32,772 bases of DNA. Origin: Verrucomicrobiota bacterium (lineage in GTDB: Bacteria; Verrucomicrobiota; Verrucomicrobiia; Chthoniobacterales; UBA10450). Made by a program: the position numbers and the translations under genes. Below the pieces are notes generated by a model, which saw only the letters and a program-made list of their open reading frames with translations, did no database searches and was not told where the DNA came from. The stretch is taken from the NCBI GenBank assembly GCA_005887825.1, contig VBQC01000170.1, forward strand, positions 1-32,772, given 5' to 3'. This document shows, piece by piece, positions 9,167-32,391 of the stretch (its first letter is position 1; each line of letters opens with the position of its first letter).

Positions 9167-11962
9167 GTGATCGACGTTCAATATCAGCGCGGCGTTTACT
9201 TGTCGCACGAGGACTTGTGGCTCGACCCGTGGGACGCCAAGCGTTTCGCATTCGTCTCGCACGCGCATAGCGACCACATCGCGCCACATGATGAGATCAT
9301 CGTTTCGAAGCGCACCGCTCGGTTGATGCAGGCGCGTCTACCGGGGACACGCATAGAACATGCATTGTCGTTTGGCGAACGAAGAACAGTGCACGATGTC
9401 GATGTAACGTTGTTGCCCGCCGGCCACATTTTCGGTTCGGCGCAATTTTTTCTTTTCGCGAGAGACGAGACGCTGCTTTATACGGGGGATTTCAAGCTGC
9501 GTCCGGGGAAATCCGCCGAGCGCGCGGAGTGGCGCGAGGCCGACACACTCATCATGGAGACGACTTTTGGCCTGCCGCGCTATCGATTTCCGCCAACGGA
9601 ACAAGTTATTGACCAAATCGTCACTTTCTGCCGCGAAACACTGGACGATGGCCAGGTGCCAGTGCTCCTCGGCTACTCGTTAGGTAAGGCGCAGGAGATA
9701 TTGTGCTCGCTCGACGAAGCAGGATTAACGCCCATGCTGCACGGCTCCGTCTATCAGATGACCCGCATCTACGAACAGCTCGGCCAATCGTTCTGTAAAT
9801 ACGTGCGCTACAACGTGAATGATGTCGCGGGAAAAGTCCTCATCTGTCCACCCAGCGCAAATCGATCGCGCATGCTGGAAAAAATTCCGCACAAACGCGT
9901 TGCGATGATCAGTGGCTGGGCGACTGATCCCAACGCGGTTTATCGCTATCAGGTTGATGCCGCTTTTCCTCTTTCGGACCACGCTGATTACAACGACCTG
10001 CTTCGCTATGTCGATCTTGTGCGGCCCAGGCGCGTGTTCACCCTCCATGGTTTCGCCGCCGAGTTTGCGCGCGATTTGCGCGAACGCGGCATCGAGGCCT
10101 GGGCGCTCACGGAAGAAAATCAAATGGAACTGAGCTTGGGGAGCGCGGGCATGTTGCCGGAAGCCTCTGGCAAAACGCGCGGTGAAGTTGTCCGGCAAAG
10201 TGCCGGACAGAGCGGGCAGCATGCCCGCGCTCCTCAATCCGAATCGGAATTCTTTGCATTCGCTCACGTCGGCGAAAGAATCGGCGCCGCTGCCGCAAAG
10301 CTGCAGAAAGTGCGTTTGCTTGCCGATTATTTGCGGACGCTCGGTCAAGAACAGCTTCCCATCGCGGCGATTTACTTTACAGGCCGGGCTTTTGCGCAGA
10401 GCGATCCGCGCACATTGCAAGTGGGAGGATCGATCATCTACCGCGCAATGATGGCAGCGGCGAAATTGAGCGACGCAGAGTTCCACCGCATTGCCCACGG
10501 GCACGGAGACGCCGGCAAAACTGCCTTCGAAGCGCTGGAGGGGCGCACTAATCCCGAGCCGTTCGCGCTCGAAGAATCGTGCAATTTCTTCGATACATTG
10601 CATCGAAGCCGTGGCCCCATTGCGAAGACCGAGTTGCTGCGATCACGCCTTGCCAAATTGTCCGCGCGTGAGGCTCAGTACGTGGTCAAGATTCTCACGG
10701 GAGACTTGCGCATCGGCTTGCGGGAGGGACTCGTGGAAGAAGCAATCGCCCACGGCTTCGAGATGCCGCTGGATCAGGTGAAGGAAGCCCACATGCTCCT
10801 GGGCGATATCGGCGCCACCGCAATGCTTGCTTCACGAAAAGAATTGCACCGCGCGGAATTATCGATCTTTCGTCCGATCAAGTGCATGCTGGCGACTCCG
10901 GAACCAACAGCAGAAGCAGTGTGGGAACGGTTCGTCGAAGGGAAGGATCCTGCGGCCCAACTGCTTTCGGTCGCCGCGGCGACCTATGACGCAGCAGGCA
11001 ACGCGGCTACAGTTTATTTGGAAGACAAATTCGACGGTATTCGCGCGCAGCTTCATCGCAGCGGACAACGGGTCGAAATTTTCTCGCGCGATTTGCGGCG
11101 CATCACCGATCAATTTCCAGAACTGGCGAGGCAAGCAAGGAACTTCGAGAAAGAGCTGATCGTGGATGGTGAAATTATCGCCTATGAACAAGGTCGCAGA
11201 CTCACCTTCTTTGATCTGCAAAAGCGGCTCGGTCGCAAAAGTGATGGCGCGGATTTGTTCGATGGTGTCGCGGCAGATGTGCCGGTCGCTTTTATCATCT
11301 TTGATCTTCTTTGGCTGAATGGGCGCTCGTTGCTGAAAACTCCGCTGCGCGAGCGACGCGGACGGCTCGGCGGCTTGCGATTACCGCCGCAATTTCAGAT
11401 AGCGGAAGTAATGTCCGCGCATTCCGCGAGTGAGATCGAGCAAACTTTCCAACAGGCTCGGCGTCGCTTGAACGAAGGTCTTATGATCAAAGACCCGGAA
11501 AGCGTCTATTTACCGGGCACCCGTGGGATGTTTTGGTTTAAGCTCAAGAAAGAGCTGGCAACGCTCGATGTAGTGGTCGTCGCCGCCGAGCTTGGCCATG
11601 GCAAACGCAATAATGTGCTGAGTGATTACACATTCGCGGTGCGCGACGAAACAACGGGCGAGCTCTTGCCGATAGGCAAAGCCTATAGTGGGCTGACTGA
11701 CGCGGAGATTGCGGACTTAACCGAGCACTTCAAACAGAACACGATTGCAGATCATGGCCGATACCGTGAAGTGAACCCGGACATCGTGCTCGAGGTCGCA
11801 TTCAACTCAATCCAGCCGAGTACGCGCCACGCCAGTGGACTCGCGCTGCGCTTTCCCAGAATCAAAGCGATCCGGCGCGACAAAAATGTCGATTCCATCG
11901 ACACCCTCGAATACGCGCGACAACTCGCGGCGCAGCGATCAGAGGTTGGAGTGTTGGAGTAA
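9167..11962 (+). CDS. Fusion of MBL-fold ligase-associated exonuclease and ATP-dependent DNA ligase (931 aa, GTG start)
   Basis: N-terminal beta-CASP/MBL signature FVSHAHSDHIAPHDE, LLPAGHIFGSAQFFL, LLYTGDFKLRP, METTFGLPRY, FPLSDHADYNDLL; C-terminal ligase motif I EDKFDGIRAQLH, FSRDLRRITDQFPEL, VDGEIIAYEQGRRLTFFDLQKRLGR, GLMIKDPESVYLPGTRGMFWFKLKKEL. Confidence 0.93.
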   Translation: MIDVQYQRGVYLSHEDLWLDPWDAKRFAFVSHAHSDHIAPHDEIIVSKRTARLMQARLPGTRIEHALSFGERRTVHDVDVTLLPAGHIFGSAQFFLFARDETLLYTGDFKLRPGKSAERAEWREADTLIMETTFGLPRYRFPPTEQVIDQIVTFCRETLDDGQVPVLLGYSLGKAQEILCSLDEAGLTPMLHGSVYQMTRIYEQLGQSFCKYVRYNVNDVAGKVLICPPSANRSRMLEKIPHKRVAMISGWATDPNAVYRYQVDAAFPLSDHADYNDLLRYVDLVRPRRVFTLHGFAAEFARDLRERGIEAWALTEENQMELSLGSAGMLPEASGKTRGEVVRQSAGQSGQHARAPQSESEFFAFAHVGERIGAAAAKLQKVRLLADYLRTLGQEQLPIAAIYFTGRAFAQSDPRTLQVGGSIIYRAMMAAAKLSDAEFHRIAHGHGDAGKTAFEALEGRTNPEPFALEESCNFFDTLHRSRGPIAKTELLRSRLAKLSAREAQYVVKILTGDLRIGLREGLVEEAIAHGFEMPLDQVKEAHMLLGDIGATAMLASRKELHRAELSIFRPIKCMLATPEPTAEAVWERFVEGKDPAAQLLSVAAATYDAAGNAATVYLEDKFDGIRAQLHRSGQRVEIFSRDLRRITDQFPELARQARNFEKELIVDGEIIAYEQGRRLTFFDLQKRLGRKSDGADLFDGVAADVPVAFIIFDLLWLNGRSLLKTPLRERRGRLGGLRLPPQFQIAEVMSAHSASEIEQTFQQARRRLNEGLMIKDPESVYLPGTRGMFWFKLKKELATLDVVVVAAELGHGKRNNVLSDYTFAVRDETTGELLPIGKAYSGLTDAEIADLTEHFKQNTIADHGRYREVNPDIVLEVAFNSIQPSTRHASGLALRFPRIKAIRRDKNVDSIDTLEYARQLAAQRSEVGVLE
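10140..10233. repeat. Palindromic element in frame in the linker between exonuclease and ligase domains
   Basis: 14-nt perfect arms GGAGCGCGGGCATG (10140-10153) / CATGCCCGCGCTCC (10220-10233), extendable to 19 bp with one G-U pair; nested perfect hairpin GTCCGGCA-AAG-TGCCGGAC (10190-10208). Confidence 0.75.
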
Positions 11963-12038: not shown

Positions 12039-12548
12039 CTACTGCGGTGTTCCATCGGAAGATGTTGGCGATGGCGCGGGCGAGGCACTTTCCGACTGAT
12101 CAGACGCCGGCGAAGACGATGTCGATTCTGAATTGCCGGGCGTTCCTGATGAACCCGCGGACGTTTCCGAAATGCCTGGCGCCTCCGGCAAAGATGAGCC
12201 CGGCGCCTCCGGCAAAGATGATGGTGTCGCAAAACGACTGTGCCGAAGACCACGCGGCGGAACCCCGGCGCGCCCAGGGATAGGCGGGATGGCGAAGTCC
12301 CCCGGTGGGGAACCTGGCGCCGCATCTGGTCCGGCTGATTTTCTTTTCTCCAACGCCTTCTTGCGGTTCTCGAGCCAGGCTTGGCGCCGCTCGATCTGCT
12401 GTTGCTTCTGGGCCTCCTGCTCCGCAGCCAATTGTTGCTGCACCTCCTGCTTGACCATGGCTCTTATTTCTTCCTTGGTTGTCTGCTTTTGGCAGGAACA
12501 AAATGTGGCCAAGGCAAGGATCAGCGGCAGGGCAAACGAGTTCTTCAT
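12039..12548 (-). CDS. Hypothetical lipoprotein with low-complexity Ser/Pro-rich C-terminus
   Basis: Lipobox-like MKNSFALPLILALATFCSCQ followed by a coiled-coil segment and S/P/A-rich repeats. Confidence 0.6.
   Translation of the reverse strand: MKNSFALPLILALATFCSCQKQTTKEEIRAMVKQEVQQQLAAEQEAQKQQQIERRQAWLENRKKALEKRKSAGPDAAPGSPPGDFAIPPIPGRAGVPPRGLRHSRFATPSSLPEAPGSSLPEAPGISETSAGSSGTPGNSESTSSSPASDQSESASPAPSPTSSDGTPQ
12175..12222. repeat. 24-bp tandem direct repeat, 2 copies
   Basis: CCTGGCGCCTCCGGCAAAGATGAG / CCCGGCGCCTCCGGCAAAGATGAT, encoding SSLPEAPG-type octapeptides on the minus strand. Confidence 0.85.
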
Positions 12549-26805: not shown

Positions 26806-28983
26806 TTATTGCAGATCGTACACTTCCACGAGAGCAACACCAGTGGTGTTGTTCACACCACGCACAATCGCGGTGTAATTGCCCGGTGGCAGCGTTGCAA
26901 TAATTGCAGACTCGCTTGGCTGACTGGGAGAATGCCCGCTGTTCTGGATAGCGCTGACCTGGTTAGTGGTAATGACGCCGCCTATTACCGTAGTCTGCCA
27001 GTTATCGTTAAAGTCAATCAAAGCGCCTGTGCCATCGTGCAGTTCCAATGTCGGATCAGCCAAGGCGTTGGGAATATTATATGGAGGTGCGGATAACTCA
27101 GGACCAATGGCACGCAGAATCACCGTCTTTGGTCCGGTCCCTTGGACGATAAAACCGCCAATCATCACGTTGTTACCCGTCTGCACCAAGCCCCGAGTGC
27201 TGATGTTGCCTAGAATTGAAGCAGCCCCAGGGCTGAGATCGTACACTTCTACAAGAGCAACTCCGACGGCGTTATTTCTTCCCCGCACGATTGCGGTGTA
27301 GTTACCCGGTTGTAGCGTGGCTATAATCGCAGACTCGCTTGCCTGTATCGGAGCATGCCCGCTGTTTTGGATCGCGCTGACCTGGTTAGTGGTAATGATG
27401 CCGCCTATTATCGTAGTCTGCCAGTTGTCGTTAGAGGCAATCAAAGCCCCTGTGCCGTCGTGCAGTTCCAATGTCGGATCAGCCAAGGCGTTGGGAATAT
27501 TGAATGGCGGCGCAGATAGCTCAGGACCAATGGCACGCAGAATGACCGTCTTTGGTCCGGTCCCTTCGACGATAAAACCGCCAATCATCACGTTGTCGCC
27601 CGTCTGCACAAAGCCCCGAGTGCTGATGTTGCCTAGCGTGACTCGATTCAGGTCGTAACCGATGACGTCGAGATTGATCCCTTCCGGCGATGTAGCCGTG
27701 ACGTCGGAAGATTGTCCTGCACAACCAAATGCATTCTGGACATACGGATGCGCCTGAGGGCACGCGGTGCTCAACCAATCACCCAAATCGCCGCTCGAAT
27801 CCTGACTGAAATTGACGATGTTGGTGCTGCCACCGTTGATCGAGAAATAGCGCGTGCCAGTCGAACTGATATTTCTGTGACCGGCAGAGGACCAACTGAA
27901 CAGGTCCTGCGGGCGGAGATCAGAAAGATTTACTTGCGATCCAAAACCGATGACCTCGTCCATTTCGTGCTCCGTCGAACGCTGCGCGTCGAAGTTGCTG
28001 CCGCTGGTAGGTCGGGTGAACTGATACGGTACTGCAGAATTGAGGGTAACTATTCCATCGTATGGGCCGCCGTTGCCGACTCTGGCGTTTGCAAACATCG
28101 CCGGGGGCGTGTTCAACGCCACTGCCCGCCCGTTCGCACTCGACGGTTTGATGTTAGAGGATAATGCAGTGCCTGGCAGGCTGGCGTTCGCGAGATCGTC
28201 GTTGCTCGTCTTTGCATCGCCCCTCAGGGCATTGATATACGTGCTCCACGGAAACGTGTAGACCACCAAGTCGCTTTGCGAGATAGTCCCCGCCGACAGT
28301 GGAGTGCCATCCGGTGCAGTGGTTGAGTAGCGGAAAAAGATCTGGATCGTGATTGGATCGCTAAACAGCGACTCGTCAATCGAAATGGCTCGGTTGATCA
28401 TCGCCTCGATGGCCGCCGCGTTTGGGTTGCTGGTAATGGAGCTGTCGAACGTTGCGTGAATGATCAGCCCGGTAGTAGCTACCGTTGTGGCGGCCATTAC
28501 GTCCGAGTAGCCGCCTGGACCGATTGCATCATAAGCGCGCACTCGATAATAGTAGGTGGTGCCCCGATTCAGGCCGGTCACTACCCGTCCGGCTACGTTG
28601 CCCACGTCCAAGTTGTGATAACCGTCCACGTAGCTGTCGAACGAGTTGCTCATGGAGACATCCAGCAGATAGCCGGTCGCGCCACCTACGCTAACCCAGT
28701 TAGCACTAAAGCTGCTGCGTGTGGGCACTGGCCCCTGCCGCAACCCAATGTCAGCTTGTGCCGGAATTTCGCTGACGCTCGGAACCCCGGGCGCGATTTG
28801 CGACTCTGCCCGGGTCACGTGCGTCGCGGTGCCCGCTGCGAATGGAGACGATGCGTTCGCGATACTGTTTTGCCCTGGCAAACTTGTGCTGCCGCCGAAC
28901 GCAGCCAGTCCCAACACGACATCAGCAGCAAAAATAATCGAACGCGTTATCGGAAAGCCCCGGCCATTGCATCGTTTCCCCAT
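26806..28983 (-). CDS. Large secreted protein: fibronectin type III-like domain, metallopeptidase-like region, two C-terminal ~136-aa repeats
   Basis: FN3-like SFSANWVSVGGATGYLLDVS...VTGLNRGTTYYYRVRAYDAIGPGGYS; STEHEMDEVIGFGSQ; two copies of LGNISTRGxVQTGxNVMIGGFIVxGTGPKTVILRAIGPELSAPP...VALVEVYDL. Confidence 0.82.
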   Translation of the reverse strand: MGKRCNGRGFPITRSIIFAADVVLGLAAFGGSTSLPGQNSIANASSPFAAGTATHVTRAESQIAPGVPSVSEIPAQADIGLRQGPVPTRSSFSANWVSVGGATGYLLDVSMSNSFDSYVDGYHNLDVGNVAGRVVTGLNRGTTYYYRVRAYDAIGPGGYSDVMAATTVATTGLIIHATFDSSITSNPNAAAIEAMINRAISIDESLFSDPITIQIFFRYSTTAPDGTPLSAGTISQSDLVVYTFPWSTYINALRGDAKTSNDDLANASLPGTALSSNIKPSSANGRAVALNTPPAMFANARVGNGGPYDGIVTLNSAVPYQFTRPTSGSNFDAQRSTEHEMDEVIGFGSQVNLSDLRPQDLFSWSSAGHRNISSTGTRYFSINGGSTNIVNFSQDSSGDLGDWLSTACPQAHPYVQNAFGCAGQSSDVTATSPEGINLDVIGYDLNRVTLGNISTRGFVQTGDNVMIGGFIVEGTGPKTVILRAIGPELSAPPFNIPNALADPTLELHDGTGALIASNDNWQTTIIGGIITTNQVSAIQNSGHAPIQASESAIIATLQPGNYTAIVRGRNNAVGVALVEVYDLSPGAASILGNISTRGLVQTGNNVMIGGFIVQGTGPKTVILRAIGPELSAPPYNIPNALADPTLELHDGTGALIDFNDNWQTTVIGGVITTNQVSAIQNSGHSPSQPSESAIIATLPPGNYTAIVRGVNNTTGVALVEVYDLQ
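26812..27636. repeat. Tandem duplication of a ~408-bp coding unit (2 copies)
   Basis: Two highly similar blocks (~26812-27213 and ~27229-27636), each ending in ...CGAGTGCTGATGTTGCCTAG on the + strand. Confidence 0.85.
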
Positions 28984-29059
28984 GAAGCCTGCTAGTTTAA
29001 CTGGACAATGCTGATCGCCAAGTCGAAAAACCGGGAAAAGCCGAGGGCTGTGGCTGTGA

Positions 29060-29088
29060 GCGCTCGCGTGTTCGTCACATGCGAGCGC
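29060..29088. repeat. Inverted repeat between the 29102 gene and the 28983 start; possible terminator
   Basis: GCGCTCGC (29060-29067) / GCGAGCGC (29081-29088), with an additional GTG/CAC pairing in the loop. Confidence 0.4.
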
Positions 29089-29101
29089 GTCGCTGCTAGA
29101 A

Positions 29102-29803
29102 TTAGTAGCCGCTGGTGTGCAAGATTACTTTCCCGTCGCTGATTTCTCCGCCCGTTACGCCATACTGGTTGGCATATTTGATCACGTAACTTCGCAGTGA
29201 TTGTCCGGCTCCGAGTAATCGCCGGTCCAGCAGATCGGTGGGAAAGCTGTGGCCGTTAACTGTCACCTCGCTCAGTTGCACGTTATTCGCGTTGGTTCCC
29301 GGCGGCGCTGCCACGGTGACAGTGGCATTCAAATACCGATCGCCCAGACCAAATGCATCGCGAAATGGAACCTTCAGTCGTTCCAACGGAATGGATACCT
29401 GGACCTGCCCGACATTGCCGTCGATCCGAACAAACGCCAGGCCATGCGATTTTCGATTGGCCGCGATCAGCGCATTGATCTCTCCGGCAGTGAACTCCAC
29501 CCCGGTTCGCTCGTGAGTGCGCGCCGCTGATTTGATCGTATCCAAGCGTTCGCGAACCGGAGCGCTTGTTTCGCTCGGCGTGGCCGCGCTTGTTTCCCCA
29601 GGAGTCGCAGCGCTGGTTTCGCTGGGCGCAGAAGCTTCAGGGATCGGTGCGGGTTTATCGGAAAGATAGATGTGACGGAGACTCCAATAAGTTCCGCCGA
29701 CCCCTGCTACGACGAATAAGATCCCGAATGCGATGAGGATCAGGCAGCCTTTTGCGAAACAGCCCTTTCCTCGTTTCGGCGGCGTCTCAACCCGGGCGTT
29801 CAT
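29102..29803 (-). CDS. Hypothetical membrane-anchored protein
   Basis: N-terminal TM LILIAFGILFVVAGVGGTYW, then SETSAATP repeats and a conserved-looking C-terminal domain. Confidence 0.65.
   Translation of the reverse strand: MNARVETPPKRGKGCFAKGCLILIAFGILFVVAGVGGTYWSLRHIYLSDKPAPIPEASAPSETSAATPGETSAATPSETSAPVRERLDTIKSAARTHERTGVEFTAGEINALIAANRKSHGLAFVRIDGNVGQVQVSIPLERLKVPFRDAFGLGDRYLNATVTVAAPPGTNANNVQLSEVTVNGHSFPTDLLDRRLLGAGQSLRSYVIKYANQYGVTGGEISDGKVILHTSGY
29562..29633. repeat. 24-bp imperfect tandem repeat, 3 copies
   Basis: GCGCTTGTTTCGCTCGGCGTGGCC / GCGCTTGTTTCCCCAGGAGTCGCA / GCGCTGGTTTCGCTGGGCGCAGAA. Confidence 0.8.
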
Positions 29804-29967
29804 TTTTGTGATTCCATGTCGATCTTGCTCCGCGCATCGATCAGCTTCTCATAGAAGATGCGCAATCCTTCCAAGAGCATCTGCGTTCCGCTGAGGACCG
29901 GCATAAAGCTAATGCCACCATGACCATGCAACCGAGGAGCGCGCAACCGCAAATCAACGTCTTTCAC
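29800..29967 (-). CDS. Small unlisted ORF (55 aa, GTG start), possibly the 3' part of a frameshifted gene
   Basis: VKDVDLRLRAPRLHGHGGISFMPVLSGTQMLLEGLRIFYEKLIDARSKIDMESQK; its TGA overlaps the ATG of the 29803 gene (ATGA). Confidence 0.45.
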   Translation of the reverse strand: MKDVDLRLRAPRLHGHGGISFMPVLSGTQMLLEGLRIFYEKLIDARSKIDMESQK

Positions 29968-30201
29968 GGTTTCGATGTGAGCACGATCGTCAAGACGCGG
30001 AGTTGCGCTGCGGGTCTTTGAAGGAGACTGAGCCTTGCTCGCTCACGCGACTGGCCATATCGCCCAGCCGACAAGCGCGCCTCGGCAATACTGATCTGCC
30101 AATACCCTCCTCGCCCGATCAACTCCTTGGCTGCATCGCGCCCATGCGCTTCGACTAACCGAAAGACACTCGCTGCGCGTGGCTGGCTTTAGAACGGAGT
30201 A

Positions 30202-32391
30202 TTAGTGCAGATCGTATACTTCTACGAGAGCAACGCCGGTGGTATTGTTCGCGCCACGCACGATCGCGGTGTAGTTGCCCGCTGGCAGGTCTGCTATGAT
30301 CGCAGATTCCCTTGGGTCGCCTGGAGCGTAGCCGCTGTTTAAGATGTCGCGAACCTGGCTGGCGGTGATGATCCCGCCGATTATCGTGTGCTGCCAGTTA
30401 TCGTTAGACGCAATCAAAGCTCCAGTGGCGTCGTGCAGCTCTAATGTCGGATCAGCCAATACATTGGGAACACCGTATTGAGTGAGCTCGGGGCCAATTG
30501 CGCGAATAATCACACTCCGCGGTTGAGTCCCTTGAACGATGAAACCGCCGATCATCACGTTGTCACCCGTCTGCACAAAGCTGCGAGTACTAATGTTGCC
30601 TAGTGTAGAGTCAGGCGCGGGGCTGAGATCGTACACTTCCGCGAGAGCAACTCCGGTCATGTTAGCCACACCACGCACAATCGCAGTGTAGTTACCCGGT
30701 GGCAGGCTTACGATCATCGCCGACTCCCTTATGTCACCTGGAGCATAGCCGCTGTTCAGGATGTCGGTCACTTGATCGCTGGTGATAATCCCGCCGATGA
30801 TCGTTGTCCCCCAGTTATCATTAGAGGCAATTAAAGCTCCGGTATCGTCGTGCAGCTCCAAGGTTGGATTTAACAATGGATTGGCAACGCCGTATTGAGT
30901 GAGCGAAGGGCCAATCGCGCGAATAACTACCTTCTTTGGTTCAGCCCCTTGAACAATGAAGCCGCCAATCATCACGTTGTCGCCTGTCTGAACAAAGGCA
31001 CGCGTAGAAATGTTTCCGAGAGTTGAGATAGGGCCCGCTTCCACTGTTCCAAGGCCGCTCCCAAACTCAGAGAGGATATGTGGGGCGCCGCTCATTGGAC
31101 CTCCATATATACCCGGCGGTTGCGCAACGCCGCCGACCACTAATGAGGCGATTACGTCGGGAGGCCCAGTAAAGTCGAGGTTGATAATTGAGTCGCTTAC
31201 GAGAATTAGACCGACGGTATCCGCGATGCAGGTGTTAGTTTGCAAAGTGATTACCCCGCTGCCGATCTTGGCCAGCGAACCGCCTTGGCCGTCACTCGAG
31301 ATCACGCCGGAGAAAGACGTGTCGATGTCGTTTATGCCTACTGTCAGCCTATTAGCTCCTAAGAAAACATTTCCGGAGCCCTCAATAGAGCCGATGGTCA
31401 CGCCGGATTGGTGGCCGCTGATATCCAGGTAACCATAGTCAAAAACCATCACCTGCGCGGTACCACCGGTCGAACCACCTTCGAAAGCAATCGCACCGCT
31501 CCCAATCCCATTACTCGCTCCATTGGCGATAAGAGTCGCGCTGTCGGCAGTCGATGAATCATTGAAGATGGTCACGCCGCCTAATGATGGTTCCTCAAGC
31601 TCGCCGTGGTTGGTGATGGTCGCGTGGCCGGCGCTCGATGTGTCGTTGAAGATTGTCACGGCCGCTCCATCAGCGAAGCCAAAGCCTTCCTGGTTGTCGA
31701 TGGAAGCGTTGGCCGCAGTTGATGTGCCGTTGAAAGTTGTCTGGGCGCCAATACCATGACTAAGTTGAGCTCCGTCGTTGCTGATCGAGGCATGGTCGGC
31801 AGTCGATGCGTCGTTGAAAATCGTTCGACCGATATCGCCGTTTAAGCCTAATTCTGCGCTAGCGTTTTCGATCGAAGCGCCGGCCGCACTCGACGTATCG
31901 TTGAAGATCGTCTGGCCGCCAACTCCGAATCCCAGATCGTAGTTAACAATGCGCATCTGAGCGGTGGCCGCAGTCGATGTGTTGTTGAAGATTATTTGGC
32001 CTGCTTCACCAACTACAAAGGTTTGCAAAACGCTGTTATTGTTGGTGACGCCGGTGCCGCTTATTATCAGTTCGCCTCCGGAGCACCCGAAGCAATCCGC
32101 CGGGATGTTTAAAGTGAAAGAGTTGGAGGCGGAAGTGAACACGATGCTGTTCACCTCCTCCAATGTCGAGACGTTCACGCTTGTTTGCGAGGACTGAGCG
32201 AAGGTCGCAATATCGGAGGGCCCATTCGGCGGCCCACCTGGCGTCCAATTATTAGCGTTTTCCCAAGCCGAGTCCTGCGGCGAGGATAGCCACGTCGCAC
32301 TGCCTGCGAGGCCAATTTGAGCAGTCAGCACGAGCACCGCCGCCGCGATGCTGTGAACGATATAAGCGGTAATTTTGCTTTTGGTCTTCAT
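30202..32391 (-). CDS. Large secreted repeat protein (autotransporter-repeat-like) with two C-terminal ~136-aa domains
   Basis: Internal Met start gives signal-like MKTKSKITAYIVHSIAAAVLVLTAQIGLAGS; array of 27-29 aa IFNDTSTA... units; two LGNISTRxFVQTGDNVMIGGFIVQG...GVALxEVYDL copies. The longer track ORF starts at 32511. Confidence 0.82.
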   Translation of the reverse strand: MKTKSKITAYIVHSIAAAVLVLTAQIGLAGSATWLSSPQDSAWENANNWTPGGPPNGPSDIATFAQSSQTSVNVSTLEEVNSIVFTSASNSFTLNIPADCFGCSGGELIISGTGVTNNNSVLQTFVVGEAGQIIFNNTSTAATAQMRIVNYDLGFGVGGQTIFNDTSSAAGASIENASAELGLNGDIGRTIFNDASTADHASISNDGAQLSHGIGAQTTFNGTSTAANASIDNQEGFGFADGAAVTIFNDTSSAGHATITNHGELEEPSLGGVTIFNDSSTADSATLIANGASNGIGSGAIAFEGGSTGGTAQVMVFDYGYLDISGHQSGVTIGSIEGSGNVFLGANRLTVGINDIDTSFSGVISSDGQGGSLAKIGSGVITLQTNTCIADTVGLILVSDSIINLDFTGPPDVIASLVVGGVAQPPGIYGGPMSGAPHILSEFGSGLGTVEAGPISTLGNISTRAFVQTGDNVMIGGFIVQGAEPKKVVIRAIGPSLTQYGVANPLLNPTLELHDDTGALIASNDNWGTTIIGGIITSDQVTDILNSGYAPGDIRESAMIVSLPPGNYTAIVRGVANMTGVALAEVYDLSPAPDSTLGNISTRSFVQTGDNVMIGGFIVQGTQPRSVIIRAIGPELTQYGVPNVLADPTLELHDATGALIASNDNWQHTIIGGIITASQVRDILNSGYAPGDPRESAIIADLPAGNYTAIVRGANNTTGVALVEVYDLH
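30208..31022. repeat. Second tandem pair of the ~136-aa-domain coding unit
   Basis: Two blocks (~30208-30605 and ~30620-31022) encoding domains homologous to those at 26812-27636. Confidence 0.8.
31460..32000. repeat. ~84-bp coding repeat array, about 7 copies
   Basis: Recurring GTCGATGTRTCGTTGAAGAT-type block; translated spacing between IFN motifs is 28, 29, 28, 28, 28, 27 aa. Confidence 0.8.

Follow-up and report, generated by a model that had tools for sequence, protein, structure and literature searches.

An in-frame palindrome in the linker of a Verrucomicrobiota exonuclease–ligase fusion as a probable mini-element of a RAYT-associated family

The palindrome between the exonuclease and ligase domains

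The window, the whole 32.8-kb stretch of DNA that was analysed, comes from a Verrucomicrobiota genome that we call G000. An open reading frame on its forward strand at 9167–11962, with a GTG start, encodes a 931-residue fusion of a ligase-associated exonuclease (MBL/RMMBL) and an ATP-dependent DNA ligase, as assigned from the domain matches. The exonuclease match, TIGR04122, covers residues 7–316, and the N-terminal domain of the ligase starts at residue 362; thus, a 94-bp palindrome at 10140–10233, which encodes residues ~325–356, lies exactly between the two domains, where the preliminary description had placed it. The frame is unbroken across the palindrome. The linker between NQMEL and SEF (10127–10246, forward strand) is hypervariable among orthologues, with independent palindromic elements in different subclades. 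An AlphaFold model of the fusion, made without an alignment, had a pLDDT of 34 and was uninformative.

The base pairing that had been described was reproduced. The arms, GGAGCGCGGGCATGTTGCC and GGCAGCATGCCCGCGCTCC, pair perfectly over 14 nt and over 19 nt with one G-U, and when they are extended outward to 10136–10158 and 10215–10237, the 23 nt on each side are 91% complementary. With the imperfect outer 4 nt of both arms counted in, the entire mini-element occupies 10136–10237. The left end (10138–10158, forward strand) consists of the tag GGGGAGC (10138–10144) and a hairpin that, compared with the orthologue of genome G012, has lost 21 nt without a change of frame, seen as an alignment gap after GCGGGCAT. 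The right end (10212–10233, reverse strand) has the tag GGAGC (10233–10229) and the hairpin GCGGGC-ATGCT-GCCCGC, which is the end motif of the family copies described below in its intact form. The second hairpin of the right end is the nested TTGTCCGGCA-AAG-TGCCGGACAG at 10188–10210, with 8 perfect base pairs, or 10 including an A-U and a G-U pair.

The folding energy of the palindrome is −63.1 kcal/mol, compared with −38.2 ± 3.0 for shuffled sequences (n = 200; z = −8.2), so that it is about 25 kcal/mol more stable than their mean, and none of the 200 folded as well. No second site with at least 18 of 19 paired terminal positions at a spacing of 50–199 nt was found in the 32.8-kb window. The palindrome could in principle be native linker coding sequence with a chance symmetry, which would fit the open frame and the fact that the linkers of relatives also vary in sequence. 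The z-score and the uniqueness in the window argue against this, as do the homologous palindromes elsewhere and the lack of the segment in relatives. Since the same element is present at unrelated sites, we consider the chance-symmetry reading refuted, with a probability that is practically negligible.

An Rfam scan of the window gave no match. A candidate second element at 12050–12450 proved to be a short direct repeat. Farther along, the window contains long direct repeats (~420 nt) and a tandem array of 84 nt at 26813–31072 and 31520–32011, probably belonging to a repeat-rich surface protein.

The linker in orthologues and the copies elsewhere

Orthologues of the fusion were found in 57 of the 58 related genomes searched. 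Both domains are common to all of the aligned orthologues, while the linker varies freely in length and sequence. The segment of ~32 residues encoded by the palindrome is missing from most of them and present in two or three only, so it is not conserved throughout. The orthologue of G012 has a fuller copy of ~117 bp, GGGAGC-GCGGGCATTCTGCCCGC-TGCTGACGGCACGTTGCCGACGG...TGTCCGGCAAAATGCTGGACAGAGCGGGCAACATGCCCGCGCTCC, with the same spacer, site, and flanks as in G000. The two elements are 87% identical over 90 nt, and the left arm in G000 is shorter by 21 nt, or 7 codons, with the frame kept. Judged from this alignment, the window palindrome is a truncated copy of the fuller element. In G008, a decayed right half of the element remains in the linker.

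The linkers of G010, G027, and G032 have an unrelated palindrome, with GTAGGGAC..CGCGCTGCG..GTCC as an inverted pair, which has the form GTAGGGACATCGCGCTGCGATGTCC in G010 and G032. This is a genuine GTAG REPIN, with 28–42 pattern matches per genome and none in G000; the linker loci are L053 (G010), L057 (G032), and L064 (G027). The presence of one element in G000 and G012 and of an unrelated REPIN in the other three genomes shows that the linker tolerates palindromes and has received them repeatedly. G000 and G012 are not recovered as sisters in the tree of the fusion protein, so that either several losses or two insertions from one source must be assumed. Because the spacer is common to both, we prefer one insertion in their ancestor followed by several losses. 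A target-site duplication and a nucleotide-exact empty site are unreadable in this linker due to its hypervariability.

Might the insert have been kept for a function, either as an mRNA hairpin that times translation between the domains or as a useful spacer peptide? The high stability of the hairpin and its position between two domains would suit such a role, as would the fact that another subclade has accepted an unrelated palindrome there. However, the element is absent, deleted, or decayed in most relatives, the linker is unconstrained in length and sequence, and protein-level selection on the peptides that the family's hairpins encode is weak (see below). A retained function is thus very unlikely, and the linker peptide appears simply to be tolerated.

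The suggestion that the element may belong to a family was supported, with corrections. In BLASTN with the element against the whole G000 genome, the element itself was the sole match above noise, so the close subfamily is single-copy there, but relatives occur elsewhere in the same genome, the genus, and the order, with BLASTN matches in 26 of the 197 genomes of the order and several close copies in G003. Canonical copies, for example L104 (G003) and L082 (G014), have the layout GGGGAGC-hairpin-hairpin-spacer-hairpin-hairpin-GCTCCCC and look intergenic. A search of G000 with the core-hairpin pattern gave ~30 matches, many of which are composite palindromes of the same hairpin geometry, with GTGGC, GTAGC, or GGAGC as tags, sometimes mixed inside one element. 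About three quarters of the composite palindromes look intergenic, and among ~12 that were examined, 3 are in frame in conserved genes, namely those in the ligase, in holA (L027), and in carB (L074); these proportions come from a sample and are not a genome-wide count. Copies within coding sequences that keep the frame do exist, as had been anticipated, but because the mini-copies are mostly intergenic, insertion into genes is not the habit of the element. Further in-frame copies lie in holA, carB, and recG, and elements of this kind do supply linker peptides, as had been suggested. The holA gene (L027, G000:C84, 685–2082, TIGR01128) has a composite palindrome in frame. Directly upstream of the likely holA start, there is a second hairpin-type peptide, GSARVSRAGERVL...RLFRQDAETSTRDACATR.

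RAYT elements within housekeeping genes

A search of G000 for Y1 transposases found six places, two of which are within long open frames. In L075 (G000:C109, 1281–1985), a complete RAYT element lies in the only recG found in G000, and the recG frame is open from end to end. Its ends, GGGGAGC-ACAGGCTGCCAGCCTGT-TG-TGTCCGGCAGCTTGCCGGACA, are 46 nt long and 91% complementary, and they stand on either side of the RAYT domain (NF047646). The second, L074 (G000:C269), is a carB with a different, related RAYT in frame at ~1080–1880. The same carB has its in-frame mini-element further along, at ~2655–2735.

With the recG-borne RAYT as query against species genomes, 50 Verrucomicrobiota loci were obtained, nearly all of the genome data being MAGs. 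The RAYT is in frame with host protein on both sides in 39 of these loci and on the single visible side in 8, and it is not in frame in the remaining 3. The hosts are recG (21), alaS (13), metH (7), thrS (4), carB (3), and priA (1), with one locus having no host; host identities were checked with protein family models. The insertion site is fixed for each host gene except metH, which has two, used in different genomes (L163, L165, and L175 for one; L166, L167, L178, and L180 for the other). The inverted repeats at the termini are typically 24–65 nt. In a sample of the phylum, 7 of 289 genomes had matches, and 7 of the 8 matches were in frames of 730–1316 residues. By contrast, the strongest Y1 matches among genomes of the bacterial family are nearly all free-standing, ~150–390 residues in length.

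The HUH motif is present in 48 of 52 RAYTs and the Y..NP motif in 49. Where dS was measurable, dN/dS of the RAYT is mostly 0.03–0.13, similar to that of the host genes, while that of the hairpin arms is mostly 0.2–1.0. These ratios show purifying selection on the RAYT transposase. Between the left end and the RAYT domain, 39 of 44 elements have no ATG, and 17 have no ATG, GTG, or TTG. The left stem begins at codon position 1 in 40 of the 44, and the window palindrome has the same phase; these counts come from a strict end finder, which mis-set the left end of L075, where the GGGGAGC stem is in phase 0 by eye. The mini-elements in the ligase, holA, and carB are all in the same codon phase as the RAYT elements (holA and carB by eye). 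A predicted structure of a RecG fusion (L155) has an overall pLDDT of 60, with the RAYT domain at ~75–90 over most of its length. In this model, the RAYT domain is flanked by two apparently disordered stretches (pLDDT ~21–29), which correspond to the hairpin-encoded peptides. Foldseek with the model matched both RecG (1gm5) and a REP transposase (4er8), and a PHMMER search of PDB sequences with the RAYT domain gave no match.

The recG genes of the genus show the site in three states. At least 16 genomes have an occupied site and 15 an empty one, and the recG of G027 contains an in-frame mini-element without transposase, at the site used by the autonomous copies. By analogy, this is a direct model for the ligase linker, with the G027 mini-element as the direct analogue of the window palindrome. 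Two RAYT lineages that are only 51–58% identical are found in the same recG loop, although their hosts are ~80–90% identical, which shows that the loop has been colonised more than once or that the resident has been replaced. Two MAGs, G022 and G023, each have two recG genes, one occupied and one empty; these may be mixed strains or true duplicates.

The palindrome might also be a classical GTAG REPIN, spread by an ordinary free-standing RAYT and in frame by chance, with the in-frame RAYTs a separate matter. The mostly intergenic position of the mini-copies speaks for this, as do the free-standing RAYTs in G000 and most genomes of the bacterial family and the genuine GTAG REPINs in the same linker of G010, G027, and G032. 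But the tag is GGAG, and the two hairpins at each end match the arrangement around the recG-borne RAYT. Furthermore, the G027 mini-element is at the exact site of autonomous copies, and the best free-standing Y1 transposase of G000, L073, was considered but rejected, being flanked by different repeats. We regard this explanation as rather unlikely.

The RAYT segments might be spliced out or bypassed in translation, restoring the host protein. Their placement in conserved housekeeping genes is intein-like, and the complementary ends could bring the flanks together. However, no intein, Hint/protein-splicing, or intron family was among the matches in NCBIfam, Pfam, and Rfam scans, and an element that is skipped needs no open host frame, yet nearly all of them keep it. 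Removal of the segments is therefore extremely unlikely.

Proposed origin and comparison with known systems

We propose, with good confidence, that the palindrome is a mini-element, non-autonomous, from a Verrucomicrobiota family that has hairpin ends, is associated with RAYTs, and has autonomous members residing in frame in housekeeping genes. An ancestor of G000 and G012 would have received the insertion in frame, and the copy in G000 would later have lost 21 nt. Counter to this proposal are the single close copy in G000, the mostly intergenic mini-elements, the GGAG tag in place of GTAG, and the non-sister position of G000 and G012. An intact end, the tag GGGGAGC with two short hairpins, would form structures of the kind that a RAYT-type HUH/Y1 enzyme recognises on single-stranded DNA, and RAYTs of the recG-borne lineage probably recognise the GGAG double hairpins. 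In autonomous members, with the RAYT gene between the ends and in frame in a conserved housekeeping gene, the transposase would be translated within the host protein, as one of its domains, with disordered hairpin-encoded peptides as tethers. Surviving insertions would be those that keep the frame in surface loops. Mini-elements may arise by internal deletion or by mobilisation in trans, presumably by the recG-type RAYT lineage, and the ligase-linker palindrome would be such a remnant. Lacking a transposase, they would persist inside a gene only if the 30–40 additional residues fall in an unstructured loop or linker that tolerates them. Transposition of the family, like translation of the fusions, is inferred.

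A broader view, which we consider somewhat more likely than not, is that this RAYT lineage is intein-like without splicing. It would have no start codon of its own and be made only as an inserted domain of RecG, AlaRS, MetH, ThrRS, CarB, or PriA, with hairpin-peptide tethers, would have persisted at the same sites throughout the phylum, and would shed in-frame mini-elements. Like inteins, the RAYT elements are mobile genes in frame at conserved housekeeping sites with a patchy distribution. Unlike inteins, they have no splicing domain, their ends are nucleotide hairpins, and they encode an HUH-Y1 transposase instead of a homing endonuclease.

The preliminary description had likened the palindrome to Rickettsia palindromic elements. 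The behaviour is indeed alike, since the element is inserted in frame in a coding gene, adds a new peptide segment, and leaves the protein still encoded, but the lineages are unrelated, and the comparison is one of behaviour. RAYT/REPIN systems and TIRtrons are the better comparison, because the full-length members carry a RAYT gene. In the REPIN/BIME and RAYT (TnpA-REP) systems of E. coli and Stenotrophomonas, there are also inverted pairs of tagged hairpins and an HUH-Y transposase (PMC8266576). RAYT enzymes bind tagged hairpins in single-stranded form and cleave adjacent to them (PMC8266576). The Group 3 REP, in which a perfect palindrome with a loop of 3 nt follows the tag immediately (PMC8266576), is close to the 7-bp stems and 3-nt loops seen here. 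However, GTAG is critical in REPIN/BIME (PMC8266576), whereas here the 5' foot of the stem has GGAG, as GGGGAGC at both ends. Two inverted hairpins around a spacer are present, with two hairpins per end in the full copies, and the recG-borne RAYT, as a putative cognate, is flanked by matching double-hairpin ends.

Intragenic REP dimers have been described in Opitutus terrae, Rickettsia conorii, and other species by Di Nocera et al. in 2013 (PMC3733652). These authors already reported a DNA ligase of Opitutus terrae with an in-frame REP and suggested that the tolerated sites are flexible linkers or loops (PMC3733652). Such dimers, like the present family, are palindromes in frame in conserved genes, where they add 20–30 residues, but they have GTAG or CGTC tags (PMC3733652), whereas the present family has GGAG/GGGGAGC with two hairpins per end, and its autonomous RAYT copies are themselves in frame in genes. 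TIRtrons, or TIRYT, have a RAYT-like transposase flanked by long inverted repeats that share GGGGWSAS and are in some cases double palindromes, and TIR dimers occur as repeats (PMC3733652). TIRYT is likely subclass 2.1 of Quentin et al. 2018 (PMC6006769). The published consensus GGGGWSAS agrees with GGGGAGC(A/G) at 7 of 8 positions at best. TIRtrons were described as free-standing genes, and that paper does not report any in frame within housekeeping genes (PMC3733652). Thus, in-frame REPs and double-palindrome TIRtrons were known, while residence of the transposase gene in frame within host housekeeping genes is, as far as the open-licence literature goes, without a description that we could find and would be new.

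Insertion sequences are expected to break genes, but the ends of this family would serve as hairpins in the DNA and as flexible tethers in the protein. A transposon family could thereby live in essential genes, make use of their expression, and be passed on over the long term. Conserved enzymes would have here a concrete way to acquire new linker peptides and fused domains, and the persistence of REP/RAYT systems becomes directly testable. A survey of transposases set aside proteins that were longer than expected, taking them for fusions or errors of annotation (PMC6006769), and odd long annotations of RecG, AlaRS, MetH, ThrRS, and CarB in Verrucomicrobiota would be accounted for by in-frame RAYT elements. 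On the contig of L163 (G007:C150), two RAYT domains seem to lie in one frame.
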